A stretch of 64,000 nucleotides of DNA, taken from positions 1-64,000 of the forward strand of contig JAFXSH010000080.1 in NCBI GenBank assembly GCA_017525805.1. Direction: 5' to 3'. The stretch's first letter is position 1, and every line of letters starts with the position of its first letter. The notes under the pieces were generated by a model. That model worked only from the letters and a program-made list of their open reading frames with translations, searched no databases and had not been told where the DNA came from. Of the stretch, positions 1,686 through 47,200 are shown one piece after another. Made by a program: the position numbers and the translations under genes. Source of the DNA: Clostridia bacterium (GTDB lineage: Bacteria > Bacillota_A > Clostridia > Christensenellales > Aristaeellaceae).

Positions 1686-2618
1686 TCACTCGGTAAACAA
1701 CGGCGTGGAATAGTACCTGTCGCCGCTGTCAGGCAAAAGGGCGACGATTGTTTTCCCTTTATTCTCCGGCCTGCGAGCCAATTCGATCGCGCCGTAAAGA
1801 GCGGCGCCGGAAGAAATGCCTACGGAAATGCCCTCTTTTCTAGCGAGCAGCTTGGCTGTGGCGAAAGCGTTTTCATTGGACGCTTTGAAAACTTCGTCGT
1901 AAACCTGGGTATTCAGCACATCCGGAACAAATCCCGCGCCGATGCCCTGAATTTTGTGCGCGCCGGCTTTTCCTTCGGACAGCACAGGGGACCCTTCGGG
2001 CTCCAGGGCCACGACCTTCACATTGGGATTCTGCGACTTCAAATATTCTCCCGTGCCGGTCACCGTACCGCCGGTGCCTACGCCCGCGATGAAGATATCC
2101 ACTTTGCCGTCTGTATCACGCCAGATTTCAGGCCCGGTGGTGGCCCGATGAATCGCGGGATTGGCGGGGTTCACGAACTGGCCGGGAATAAAGCTGTCCG
2201 GGATTTCTTTTGCCAGTTCTTCCGCTTTGGCGATAGCGCCTTTCATGCCCTTGGCCCCTTCCGTCAGCACCAGTTCGGCGCCGTAGGCTTTCAGAATGTT
2301 CCTGCGCTCCACGCTCATGGTTTCAGGCATGGTCAGGATGATGCGGTAGCCTTTCGCCGCCGCGATGGAGGCCAAACCGATGCCGGTGTTTCCGCTGGTG
2401 GGTTCGATGATCACAGAGCCTTCCTTCAGCAGGCCTTTCGCTTCAGCGTCCTCGATCATGGCTTTAGCAATACGGTCCTTTACGCTTCCGGCGGGATTGA
2501 AATATTCCAGTTTTACAAGCACCGTTGCTTCCAAACCCAGTTCTTTTTCAATATTCGTTACCTCTACCAGGGGAGTGTTCCCGATAAGTCCCAGCGTTCC
2601 TTTAAAAATCTTAGACAT
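1686..2618 (-). CDS. cysK: Cysteine synthase A (O-acetylserine sulfhydrylase)
   Basis: A 310-residue PLP enzyme that makes cysteine from O-acetylserine and sulfide in the cytoplasm. Visible motifs are [10 protein letters not shown] with the PLP lysine K47, the substrate loop SGNTGIGLA, the phosphate-binding loop [12 protein letters not shown] and the C-terminal SSGAA. The length is normal. I start at the ATG at 2618 because AGGAAG lies just upstream; the longer in-frame reading back to 2699 runs through the terminator hairpin of the leader. The gene has a roughly 250-nt leader with a Cys-rich peptide and a terminator, and an Rrf2 regulator is divergent to it. This suggests cysteine-responsive control. 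Confidence 0.95.
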
Positions 2619-2657
2619 GATGATCTTCCTTTCTTTTTTGTATGTATTGTTGATAAT

Positions 2658-2689
2658 AAAATCCGGGGCTTCCTCTGAAAGCTCCCGGA
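2658..2689 (-). terminator. Leader terminator (attenuator) of cysK
   Basis: On the minus strand, positions 2689 down to 2662 fold into a stem of 12 pairs with one bulged A and a 3-nt loop. The stem is followed by TTTTATTAT, a standard intrinsic terminator 40 nt before the cysK start. Its 5' arm (2682-2691) is a perfect 10-nt inverted repeat of 2778-2787 inside the leader-peptide ORF, so an alternative antiterminator pairing is possible. Confidence 0.7.
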
Positions 2690-2714
2690 CAAATGGCATA
2701 TCGGTGAAGGGCCG

Positions 2715-2837
2715 TCAACGGCATCCCATCATCTGGAGGCGGCTACACAAACAGCCGAACGCCTCTGCCACAGACCATGTCCGGGAGAAAAGCATTCGAC
2801 AACACATCATGATCAGCTGTTTGCCAACCGCTAACAT
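2715..2837 (-). CDS. Cys-rich 40-residue leader peptide upstream of cysK
   Basis: A short ORF begins about 27 nt after the predicted cysK transcription start. It has a strong ribosome-binding site (AAAGGAGG at 2847-2854, 9-nt spacing). The 40-residue product has five cysteines: an adjacent pair at codons 12-13, then codons 29, 31 and 39. The downstream sequence contains a terminator whose 5' arm can pair with codons 17-20 of this ORF. This matches the layout of a leader-peptide attenuator in which stalling at Cys codons exposes the antiterminator arm. I do not know of a named homologue. The ORF, site and structures are visible; the mechanism is inferred. Confidence 0.6.
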   Translation of the reverse strand: MLAVGKQLIMMCCRMLFSRTWSVAEAFGCLCSRLQMMGCR

Positions 2838-2870
2838 TGCTGACAGCCTCCTTTCGGATGGATTGAGTGC

Positions 2871-2899
2871 ATTATATCACCATAAACATACTGTGTCAA
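2871..2899 (-). promoter_or_regulatory. cysK promoter
   Basis: On the minus strand TTGACA (2894-2899), a 17-bp spacer and TATAAT (2871-2876) give a perfect consensus promoter. Transcription would start near 2864, just before the leader peptide. Confidence 0.85.
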
Positions 2900-2936
2900 T
2901 AGGTTTTTAAAATTTTTTCAGTATTCTCCGGATCGC

Positions 2937-2997: not shown

Positions 2998-3399
2998 ATG
3001 ATCACAACAAAGGGACGGTATGCGATCCGCGTCATGATTGATCTTGCTGAAAACGATCAGGGAAAATACATACCGCTGAAGGATATTGCGGCCCGTCAGG
3101 AAATATCGAAAAAATATTTAGAAATCATTGTAAAGGATATGGTGTCCGGCGGGCTTTTAGAAGGCGCCAGCGGAAAAGGCGGGGGATACAGGCTTTGCCG
3201 GAAACCGGAAGACTATACGATCTACGAGATTTTAAGTTTAATGGAAGAAACGCTTTCTCCGGTTGCCTGTATGGCGGACCAGGAAAACGTATGCCCCCGA
3301 AAAGACATATGCCGGACCCTGCCGATGTGGATCGAATTCGATCATGTGGTCAAAGACTTTTTTTTGAACAAACGGTTGAGTGACCTGATTGCATTATAA
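2998..3399 (+). CDS. Rrf2-family transcriptional regulator with three-cysteine cluster
   Basis: A 133-residue winged-helix regulator beginning MITTKGRYAIRVMIDLA, the typical Rrf2 N-terminus. The DNA-binding helix is near residues 27-45, the wing contains GKGGGYRL, and cysteines C91, C99 and C105 are placed as in Fe-S-binding IscR-type members. The start at 2998 is set by GCAGGAGG at 2983-2990. CymR, the Rrf2 repressor of cysteine metabolism in Bacilli, lacks such a cluster, so this is not a plain CymR. Divergence from cysK suggests it senses Fe-S or sulfur status and controls cysK. The stop overlaps the convergent kinase gene by 6 bp. Confidence 0.85.
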   Translation: MITTKGRYAIRVMIDLAENDQGKYIPLKDIAARQEISKKYLEIIVKDMVSGGLLEGASGKGGGYRLCRKPEDYTIYEILSLMEETLSPVACMADQENVCPRKDICRTLPMWIEFDHVVKDFFLNKRLSDLIAL

Positions 3400-5264: not shown

Positions 5265-7022
5265 ATGAGCAAGACCATCGGCATCGATTTAGGAACGACC
5301 AACAGCTGCGTTTCCATTGTGGAAGGCGGACACGCGGTGATCATCCCCAATGATAAAGGAGAGCGCACCACGCCTTCCGTGGTGGCTTTCACCAGTGACG
5401 GCACGCGGCTGGTGGGCAGCGCGGCGGCGCATCAGGCGACGGTGAACGCCAAGCGCACCATTTCTTCCATCAAACGGCAGATGGGCACGGATTGGCGGAT
5501 CAATATCGACGGCAAAAGCTGGACGCCCCAGGAAATCAGCGCCATGATTCTGCGGAAGCTCCGCGCCGATGCGGAAAACTATTTGGGTGAACCGGTCACC
5601 GACGCCGTGATCACAGTGCCCGCGTATTTTAACGATATCCAGCGTCAGGCCACCAAGGATGCGGGAACCATCGCCGGGCTGAACGTGAAGTGCATCATCA
5701 ACGAGCCCACCAGCGCCGCCCTGGCCTACGACCTGAACACCGGCACGGCCCAGAAAGTGATGGTGTACGATTTGGGCGGCGGCACCTTCGACGTTTCGGT
5801 GATCGAAATCGGGGAAAGCGTGATCGAGGTGCTGGCCACCTCCGGCGACAATCATTTGGGCGGCGACGATTTTGACGAGCGCGTGGTCAACTGGGTCTGC
5901 GAGGAAGCGTCCCGGAGCCAGCATATCAATCTGCGGAATGACCTGGTGGCGCTGGCTCGGGTCGAGGAAGCGGCGGAGCAGGCGAAAAAGGAATTATCCG
6001 CGGCAGAAACCGCCCAAATCACCCTGCCCTATATCACGCAGCAGGGTGGAGCGCCCGTTCACCTGGACCTGACACTGACCCGAAGCAAATTCAACGAACT
6101 GACCCGCGATCTGGTGGAACGCACCGCCGGGCCGGTGCAGGCCGCGCTGAACGATGCAGGCATCGCCGCTTCGGAGCTGGGCCGCGTGCTGCTGGTAGGC
6201 GGTTCCACCCGCATTCCCGCCGTGCAGCAGAAGGTGCGCCAACTCACGGGGAAAGAACCCAGCAAGAGCATCAATCCGGATGAATGCGTGGCCCAAGGCG
6301 CCGCCATTCAGGGCGATACCCTGTCCAGTTCCAAAGCGCTTTCCATCAATAAGGGCATTCTGCTGCTGGATGTTACGCCCCTGTCCTTGTCTATCGAAAC
6401 GGTGGGCGGCGTGGCGACCAGACTGGTGGAGCGCAATTCCACCCTGCCCGTTCATTATTCCCAAATTTTCACCACCGCCGCCCCATTCCAGACCAGCGTG
6501 GAAATTCACGTTCTGCAAGGGGAGAGGCCCATGGCGGCGGATAACAAAACCATCGGCAAGTTCAAGCTCAAAGGCATCAAGATGGCCCCGGCGGGCGTGC
6601 CGCAGATCGAAGTGACTTTCGATATCGACACCAACGGCATCCTTCGCGTGTCCGCCAAGGACATGGATACCGGCAAGGAACAGGGCATCACCATTACCGC
6701 CAACGACAAAATGAGCGACGCGGAAATCAATGCCGCAATCAGGGACGCGGAACAGTATGCCGCCCAAGATCAGGTGCGCAGGGATTCACTGAATGTCGGC
6801 CATGAAGCCCAGCAGCTGGTCAACGACGTGGAAAAAGCGCTGGATGAAAAAGGCAAGCAGCTGGATAAAGCTGAAAAGAAGCAGATCAAGGACCAAACGA
6901 ACGCGCTTCGGAAGCTGATATTCCGCAAGCAGCCGGATAAAATGGAAGAAAGCGACCTGAACGCGATCCGCACCGGCATGGAAGCCTTGCGTCAGGCGTC
7001 GTCCCATCTGATGAGTTTATAA
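5265..7022 (+). CDS. dnaK: Hsp70 chaperone DnaK
   Basis: A 585-residue Hsp70. The N-terminal ATPase shows [14 protein letters not shown] at residue 5, [29 protein letters not shown] and [13 protein letters not shown]. The substrate-binding domain follows from about residue 365 ([17 protein letters not shown]). The lid is short and the protein ends without the usual acidic tail, about 25-50 residues shorter than standard DnaK. It stands alone, without hrcA, grpE or dnaJ, so it could be a second DnaK paralogue. The ATG at 5265 follows GAGGAGA. Confidence 0.9.
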
Positions 7023-15837: not shown

Positions 15838-16181
15838 GTGACAAAGGCGGCTGAATGGCCGCGGGCCCGCAAGGGCGTGAGGAAAGTCCGGGCACCGCAG
15901 GGCAAGGATGCCTGCTAACGGCAGGTGGAGGCGACTCCAAGGCGAGTGCAACAGAGAGATACCGCCGGGGGAGACCCCGGTAAGGGTGGAAAGGTGCGGT
16001 AAGAGCGCACCGGCGGCCTGGCGACTGTGCCGTCATGTAAACCCCATCCGGTGCAAGGTGTAGGGAACGCATAGGGCGGCCCGTCCTGTTCCCGCAGTAC
16101 CGCTCAAGCGCGCTGGCGACTTCGCGCTTAGATAGATGGCCATTTTTAACAGAACCCGGCTTACAGGCCGCGCTTTGTCAC
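15838..16181 (+). ncRNA. rnpB: RNase P RNA (bacterial type A)
   Basis: The catalytic RNA of RNase P, which matures tRNA 5' ends. The conserved core GAGGAAAGTCCGGGC starts near 15880 and AACAGAACCCGGCTTAC near 16148. The 5' end (15838-15846) is perfectly complementary to the 3' end (16173-16181), forming helix P1 and fixing the boundaries. The about 344-nt size and layout fit type A, as usual in Clostridia. Confidence 0.95.
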
Positions 16182-46981: not shown

Positions 46982-47200
46982 CGGTTGGCTGAATCGGGTC
47001 TGTGGTTGCAAGCCGATGCCAGTCGCAGGCAAAACGGTCCACGTAAGCCGAAAAAAATTTCCGGTGAGCATGGTGCGGTCTAGAAGTAAGCCCGGCCGCG
47101 CTTAAGGCGCGAGAGGACGGCGTGAGGGCGCGACGGCGCAGAGCAAAGTTCCAGCCGGCGAGTGTGGGGTCAAAAACCAGGTCAGCCGCAGCCAATCAAA
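46982..47200 (+). ncRNA. Structured noncoding RNA or long leader (possibly raiA-motif-like)
   Basis: About 215 nt with no convincing ORF between a good promoter and a zinc-ribbon gene. The 5' segment 46983-46991 pairs with 47189-47197 (9 pairs, one G-U), closing the whole domain. Inside are strong hairpins such as CGCGC-TTAAG-GCGCG near 47098-47112. The composition is GC-rich and purine-rich, as in conserved structured RNAs. I suspect a relation to the raiA-motif RNAs of Firmicutes but cannot verify it; a metabolite- or temperature-sensing leader of the zinc-ribbon gene is also possible. Confidence 0.5.

Follow-up and report, generated by a model that had tools for sequence, protein, structure and literature searches.

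How is cysK controlled in this Clostridia bacterium? In Firmicutes, the control of cysteine genes is generally attributed to T-boxes, S-boxes or CymR. The initial annotation of the window, by which we mean the whole 64,000-nucleotide stretch of DNA that was analysed, read the region upstream of cysK as a leader-peptide attenuator that applies trp/his logic to cysteine. Our analysis favors the same reading, with a probability of about 0.9: the element would be a cysteine-specific, ribosome-mediated transcription attenuator, with read-through into the gene confined to times of cysteine scarcity. The parts of the leader, together with the gene that it would control, are the following.

2871..2899, minus strand: sigma-A type promoter TTGACA-N17-TATAAT, 12/12 consensus bases
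2847..2854, minus strand: Shine-Dalgarno sequence (SD) AAAGGAGG of the leader ORF, a strong ribosome-binding site
2846..2851, minus strand: left arm of pairing P1, GGAGGC, which includes the SD; partner 2740..2735
2715..2837, minus strand: leader peptide ORF MLAVGKQLIMMCCRMLFSRTWSVAEAFGCLCSRLQMMGCR, 40 codons, Cys at 12, 13, 29, 31 and 39
2793..2804, minus strand: putative sensing core Cys12-Cys13-Arg14(CGA)-Met15, Cys at -1/-2 of CGA in 78/78 leaders
2792..2800, minus strand: left arm of pairing P2, GTCGAATGC, which pairs with GCGTTCGGC; putative anti-antiterminator
2778..2787, minus strand: antiterminator strand CTCCCGGACA, codons 17-20 of the leader ORF
2754..2762, minus strand: right arm of P2, GCGTTCGGC, partner of GTCGAATGC
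2735..2740, minus strand: right arm of P1, GCCTCC, an anti-SD late in the leader ORF
2682..2691, minus strand: antiterminator partner TGTCCGGGAG, overlapping the terminator 5' arm
2653..2689, minus strand: intrinsic terminator, hairpin 2689..2662 plus U tract, -19.4 kcal/mol, arms covary
1686..2618, minus strand: cysK, cysteine synthase, the controlled gene; PALP enzyme, PF00291, E 1.1e-78

The anatomy that had been annotated here was recovered as described: the consensus promoter ahead of cysK, the 40-codon ORF with its strong ribosome-binding site, five Cys codons and CysCys pair at 12-13, the intrinsic terminator after the ORF, and the perfect 10-nt complement of the terminator 5' arm in codons 17-20, CTCCCGGACA being the exact complement of TGTCCGGGAG. 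Directly 3' of the terminator hairpin lies TTTTATTAT, and the terminator stands about 43 nt ahead of the cysK start (2618). Hairpin 2689..2662 was absent from the output of a strict terminator scan of the window, by our guess because of a bulged A. The leader peptide matched no family in NCBIfam or Pfam. Folding of the whole leader was moderately better than that of shuffles (z -2.2; 6/200 shuffles equally low), and because this score is only moderate, it is the strong conservation in relatives that argues against a chance pattern.

A T-box, an S-box and any other known Rfam family were considered and rejected. Neither a T-box (tRNA-Cys) nor an S-box/SAM riboswitch gave a covariance-model match at gathering score, and neither gave one up to E 10 in 2560-2960. 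Rfam at gathering score returned two matches on the window, neither of them a T-box or a SAM riboswitch, and no family match on eight further leader loci. The window carries a bacterial class A RNase P RNA at 15843-16180 (plus strand; RF00010, 255 bits) and a raiA RNA at 46986-47194 (plus strand; RF03072, 181 bits).

Relatives of the leader were gathered from several sources. Our sample of cysK loci is the best 80 of a longer match list rather than a random one, and the closest cysK in it (94% identity) comes from a MAG labelled Christensenellaceae (locus L014). The L014 leader, with the peptide MAGYKLLQENCMCCRMRYVRACTRVQAFGGFAARLSGAL, has diverged and kept the plan: it shares the codons ATG TGT TGT CGA ATG with the window, both leaders have a terminator and an antiterminator, and one antiterminator pair, read by eye, is A-U in the window and G-C in L014. 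A leader-DNA search of the nearest relative's family found copies ahead of metY and other genes; at E 1 it matched 240/308 genomes, mostly in short weak pieces, and served only to fetch the best loci. The inverted repeat CTCCCGGRCA...TGYCCGGGAG has matches in 53/308 genomes of the family, in a few of them to unrelated repeats, and the reversed control pattern matched 0/308. CGAATG stands where expected in 71 of the 96 inverted-repeat entries with a T run. The other 25 comprise L040 (CTGATG, added by hand), the two orientations of L200, which contains no leader, L100, truncated where its locus begins, and, for the rest, true leaders seen in mirror image.

Eight leaders were obtained only via a Cys-containing pattern (L008, L011, L014, L028, L113, L114, L151 and L154). 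Altogether, 79 leaders from the repeat search, the cysK loci and the motif matches were aligned; L092 is cut and was dropped, which gives 78 leaders with all landmarks. The inverted repeat alone picked 70 of these 78, and 41 of the 70 are in loci not fetched by leader-DNA similarity. At less than 85% identity 64 leaders are left, and alignments A2 and A3 hold 61 and 48.

The initial annotation had assigned sensing to the CysCys pair. Cys precedes the core CGA-ATG at position -1 in 75/78 leaders and at -1 or -2 in 78/78, so that the Cys codons are indeed kept in relatives. The three leaders without Cys at -1 (L017, L166 and L180) have it one codon earlier, in L017 by an intervening Tyr codon that keeps the frame. 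The pair itself is not essential: only 54/78 leaders have Cys at both positions, which suggests, as an amendment, that a single Cys codon can suffice. Beyond the alignment the -1 Cys is lost as well, with Cys one codon earlier in L218, L221 and L263 and two codons earlier in L219; L262 keeps the Cys core, and the script found no SD-preceded start there. Cys is at -1 or -2 in 29/29 leaders from loci fetched solely through the repeat pattern and in 41/41 repeat-picked leaders from loci not fetched by DNA similarity. Position -2 is Cys in 57/78 leaders and otherwise Trp, Met, Gly, Tyr, Ser, Thr, Phe or Gln. This codon falls outside the P1, P2, antiterminator and terminator strands, and the pairings therefore do not account for its Cys content. 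Both TGT and TGC are used.

The reading frame is equally regular. Wherever an SD and a start are clear, the first start codon downstream of that SD opens a frame that reads uninterrupted into the core (76/76 leaders); the extracted pieces of L011 and L192 hold no clear SD or start. CGA is found in 77/78 leaders and ATG directly after the Arg codon in 78/78, counts that the CGAATG filter inflates by partly imposing them. Both triplets are conserved as strongly as the Cys beside them, which codon sensing alone does not explain. In L212 the frame ends right behind the core and does not reach the antiterminator strand, so the peptide past the core is dispensable, a further amendment. Cys occurs among the last four residues in 24/76 leader ORFs, several of which end Arg-Cys-Cys-stop.

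Several leaders depart from the common core. In a sub-group directly ahead of cysK (L009, L019, L033 and L038), CCC-Leu(CTG)-Met replaces CC-Arg(CGA)-Met; for L009 and L019 the script found no SD-preceded start. L028 holds a second, diverged leader (5901-6049) with the core QCCCSN, ahead of a mccB-like and then a cysK-like gene by eye. A protein-database search matched 98 predicted peptides, which are called hypothetical protein if they carry a name, and 97/98 have Cys within three residues before Arg-Met, the query having CC throughout. One database peptide (P0065) reads MWFRM at the core, with no Cys, and may represent a lost sensor or another specificity.

Conservation of the two pairings was the other expectation for relatives, and it was borne out. 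We compared pairing with the own partner against pairing with a foreign partner among the 64 leaders below 85% identity, with 2000 permutations. The antiterminator (z -6.2), the terminator arms (z -4.5) and P1, which joins the SD with the late anti-SD (z -8.1), each gave 0/2000, and three control combinations gave z 1.4, 0.3 and 0.2; the set kept misplaced landmarks in L141 (terminator) and in L192 and L194 (SD). For 21 diverged leaders the antiterminator scored z -5.4 (0/10000; two controls z 1.4 and 1.7). It is the only helix that RNAalifold predicts for 61 leaders, and 609/610 of its cells are paired (99.8%). Its compensatory double changes include one pair that is G-C in 54 leaders, A-U in 7 and mixed in 0, though the search pattern permitted mixtures. 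L219 has A-U mid-helix where most leaders have G-C, and in L267 the helix is largely rebuilt. P2 pairs in 82% of cells in 61 leaders, and its covariation is not significant (z -1.3 for the 64 leaders, z -1.7 for the 21 diverged ones). Of the 78 leaders, 74 contain the string CTCCCGG, and in all of these 11 nt separate it from CGA (the filter allowed 6-14); the leader stop lies 42-69 nt past the antiterminator strand in 73/73 leaders measured, L212, outside this set, being the exception. P1, an addition to the annotated plan, would hide the SD of the leader. By these comparisons the leader belongs to a conserved family outside Rfam 15.

Upstream of the leader, relatives keep the promoter as TTGAC-N17..19-TANNNT (72/78), and two further features of the window point to control at initiation.

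2886..2904, minus strand: imperfect palindrome ACCTA-N9-TATGT across the -35 box, probable Rrf2/CymR-like operator (predicted)
2998..3399, plus strand: Rrf2-family regulator divergent from cysK, candidate for the -35 palindrome; PF02082, E 2.4e-30

CTA-N9-TAG occurs in the upstreams of 65/78 leaders compared with 4.4% of their shuffles, and the fuller palindrome CCTA-N9-TAGG over the -35 box in 56/78. An Rrf2 gene is also divergent in L014, judged by translation, and by gene starts Rrf2 genes adjoin the leaders of L224 and L225 (PF02082, 40.6 and 27.1 bits; cut-off 30, the second below it). These features could mean that control is essentially transcriptional, with the divergently encoded Rrf2/CymR-like protein acting on the -35 palindrome and the leader setting only a basal level. 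We consider this unlikely, since it leaves unexplained the Cys-containing frame, the covarying antiterminator and the constant 11-nt spacing, and by the pattern used the palindrome is absent from 13/78 leaders. The two layers are moreover mutually compatible. A CymR-like/Rrf2-type repressor probably adds initiation control besides the attenuator, which amends the initial annotation: with a putative operator also present, two control layers probably act.

Other readings concern what the leader itself does. The conserved RNA could function chiefly through its structure, as a riboswitch or a protein-binding leader would, and the ORF could be incidental; TGTCGAATG and the CTCCCGG nucleotides are conserved past coding needs, and P1 and the antiterminator covary. 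This is very unlikely given the in-frame start after a strong SD (76/76), the in-frame extra codon of L017, the use of both TGT and TGC, the Cys at -2 (57/78) in a codon outside the paired strands, and the lack of any Rfam match up to E 10. Alternatively, the leader could sense methionine, or arginine via CGA, instead of or besides cysteine, as the near-constant CGA and ATG (partly imposed by the filter) and the MetQ/NlpA-like transporters among the controlled genes might suggest. However, CGA is replaced by CTG in L009, L019, L033, L038 and L040 and by AGA in L257, the second L028 leader has lost both Arg and Met and kept three Cys, and by the geometry a ribosome halted with its A site on the Met codon would sit over the antiterminator strand, which would favor termination. 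We judge such sensing quite unlikely, and the replacements of CGA together with the second L028 leader lead us to reject a leader that senses Met or Arg alone. The chance of a fortuitous Cys-containing ORF ahead of an ordinary terminator is negligible: SD-preceded ORFs with adjacent Cys do occur upstream of 18/362 control ORFs in the same loci, yet conservation in relatives contradicts this reading (Cys 78/78, in-frame start 76/76), and the covariance model scores the window at 133 bits, the window being in its training set. We therefore rejected it, and the leader looks like a real regulatory family: many bacteria of gut and rumen carry it ahead of cysteine-related genes.

In the 400 nt next to cysK, an ORF with adjacent Cys codons turns up in 9/80 cases against the 18/362 of the controls, too weak a difference to claim unrelated cysteine leaders. 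Upstream of cysK, L048, L049 and L075 carry different short SD-preceded ORFs that share M-x-CCD-xx-C-E-x-R. These ORFs, in loci labelled Oscillospiraceae and Ruminococcaceae, are possibly an independent cysteine leader.

For the cysteine attenuator we propose the following course of events. RNA polymerase would start a few bases past the -10 box (at about 2864), and a ribosome would translate the 40-codon leader behind it. With ample Cys-tRNA, this ribosome would clear the Cys codons and P2 (GTCGAATGC/GCGTTCGGC) would re-form behind it around the antiterminator strand; with P2 re-formed, the terminator would form and transcription would end ahead of cysK. When Cys-tRNA is scarce, the ribosome would stall with Cys12 or Cys13 in the A site, covering the left arm of P2 and ending just 5' of the antiterminator strand, and the free strand would capture the terminator 5' arm so that cysK is read. 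P1, which ties the leader SD to a segment late in the leader, would curb further rounds of initiation on that transcript. The leading edge of a ribosome lies about 15 nt 3' of the P-site start; on this footprint, a ribosome with Cys13 in the A site would reach to within 1-2 nt of the antiterminator strand. Masking of this strand by a terminating ribosome is unlikely because the stop lies 42-69 nt beyond it. With the strand left unmasked, re-formed P2 would have to hold it.

We folded the window RNA up to the terminator 5' arm with the ribosome-covered bases blocked, and repeated this over 73 leaders. The antiterminator probability in the window is 0.17 with no ribosome, 0.96 with the ribosome on the Cys codons and 0.84 with it at the stop codon; the means of the 73 leaders are 0.78, 0.95 and 0.72. 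Because the stop-codon state is still at 0.84 (mean 0.72), masked folding separates stall from no stall weakly. For the complete RNA of the 73 leaders the order is the same, with 0.41 for no ribosome, 0.54 on the Cys codons and 0.27 at the stop. At equilibrium, the fold of the full window leader is dominated by the terminator whichever of the three ribosome states is assumed (antiterminator 0.0), and the switch is not reproduced. Since equilibrium favors the terminator, we infer a kinetic trap, in which the antiterminator has to form before the terminator does.

What do the leaders precede? By script, the first downstream gene of the 78 leaders is metY in 49 and cysK in 3; 24 are unassigned and 2 leaders have none within the locus. 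One of the unassigned (L113) is cysK by motif-pattern search, and by eye most of the others belong to ABC transporters and three are peptidases. Leaders are thus found ahead of metY, metY-cysK, cysK, mccB-like and ABC-importer genes. The metY of L128 (O-acetylhomoserine/O-acetylserine sulfhydrylase) matches TIGR01326 with 626 bits (cut-off 495), and L222 has a Cys/Met PLP enzyme (PF01053). By eye, L223, L225 and L226 have a mccB-like gene followed by a cysK-like gene, and L224 has the mccB-like one. Uptake is represented by MetQ/NlpA-like genes in L211 and L216 (PF03180) and in L150 (below cut-off), a MetN-like ATPase in L165 (below cut-off), an amino-acid binding protein in L157 (below cut-off, with the cystine type among its matches) and an amino-acid permease in L162 (TIGR01726, above cut-off). 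L161 has a PepT-like peptidase, above cut-off. The identified genes, as annotated from their sequences, serve sulfur amino-acid synthesis and amino-acid uptake, the importer substrates being predicted at most.

The range of the family was followed with a covariance model built from 48 leaders, which rewards the Cys nucleotides, so that its matches are not a blind test. It found 80 places in 54/308 genomes of the nearest relative's family (E 1e-4), 20 places in 13/391 genomes of the class (E 1e-3) and 6 places in 5/398 genomes of the phylum (E 1e-4); the central genome is counted in all three totals and one other genome in two of them. The window contains one copy. Cys lies within three codons upstream of the core in 20/20 class places (L219 at -3; two known beforehand) and in 17/18 further family places, L270 being a decayed piece without a leader. 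Three new phylum loci read CCCRM, VCRM and CCCCRM ahead of genes reading as metY. Among the best 80 cysK loci, considered with their organism titles, 20 carry the leader; their labels include Lachnospiraceae, Ruminococcus, Ruminococcaceae, Mogibacterium, Parasporobacterium, Christensenellaceae and others, with one Aeromonadales. Eleven of these loci, like the window, belong to the training alignment.

The trp/his-type attenuators of Proteobacteria have a leader ORF with codons of the pathway's amino acid, and their antiterminator and terminator share one strand. The cysK leader shares these two properties. It differs from them in that the amino acid is Cys, a single Cys codon can apparently suffice and the stop lies 42-69 nt past the antiterminator strand. 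An ORF with a ribosome-binding site, Cys codons ahead of cysK, a terminator and a mutually exclusive antiterminator are all present, and by this sequence-level definition the leader would work like trp/his attenuation. The logic proposed in the initial annotation is thus supported by conserved Cys codons and pairings.

Polycysteine leaders have reportedly been worked on in mycobacteria. Among the matches listed from the open-licence literature, none describes a clostridial cysteine leader attenuator. The nearest descriptions concern other bacteria or other sensors. The uORFC-8-2 motif, upstream of cysS in Rhodobacterales, combines Cys codons in tandem, usually 14-15, with a U run at its end, and ribosome-mediated attenuation has been proposed for it (PMC8632094). 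Our leader resembles it as a Cys-codon uORF with a U run and proposed attenuation. As far as these descriptions go, the two are set apart by uORFC-8-2 belonging to Alphaproteobacteria and to cysS only, whereas the present leaders are in Bacillota ahead of synthesis and uptake genes; the gene in the window is cysK, not cysS, and the genes of the other leaders are partly identified. Actinobacterial cys operons likewise have a short Cys-codon ORF ahead of cysteine genes, with a Cys run near the stop and no terminator hairpin found (PMC1262725), whereas here terminator and antiterminator are conserved.

In Clostridium perfringens, a cysteine T-box places cysK, mccBA and transporters under cysteine-responsive premature termination (PMC2940859). 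It governs the same kinds of genes but senses tRNA directly, and the window leader has no T-box match; the leader may stand in for this T-box. A similar replacement is predicted for hisS*/hisZ of Bacilli, where His leader peptides provide attenuation instead of a T-box (PMC2965389). Both would be Firmicutes leader-peptide attenuators in place of a T-box, although the latter concern histidine and Bacilli. From these sequence comparisons, we rate the leader as a new family of a known kind.

A wider reading, which we put forward tentatively and consider rather less than an even bet, is that the CymR-like operator, promoter, leader and terminator form a transferable one-shot cysteine sensor, a cassette that replaces the cysteine T-box throughout Bacillota and coordinates a whole cysteine regulon there. 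One Cys codon would be enough because the RNA of the near-invariant CGA-AUG after it would double as a protector arm (and CGA may be a slowly read codon); P1, by locking the SD, would allow about one reading per transcript. If this cassette reading is true, the regulon would comprise metY, cysK, mccB-like genes, NlpA/MetN and cystine-type importers and a PepT-like peptidase. The attenuator family would supply a mechanism of cysteine-gene control for a number of gut and rumen bacteria and a likely role for 'hypothetical proteins' of about 40 residues, and it predicts a cysteine regulon that includes importers.
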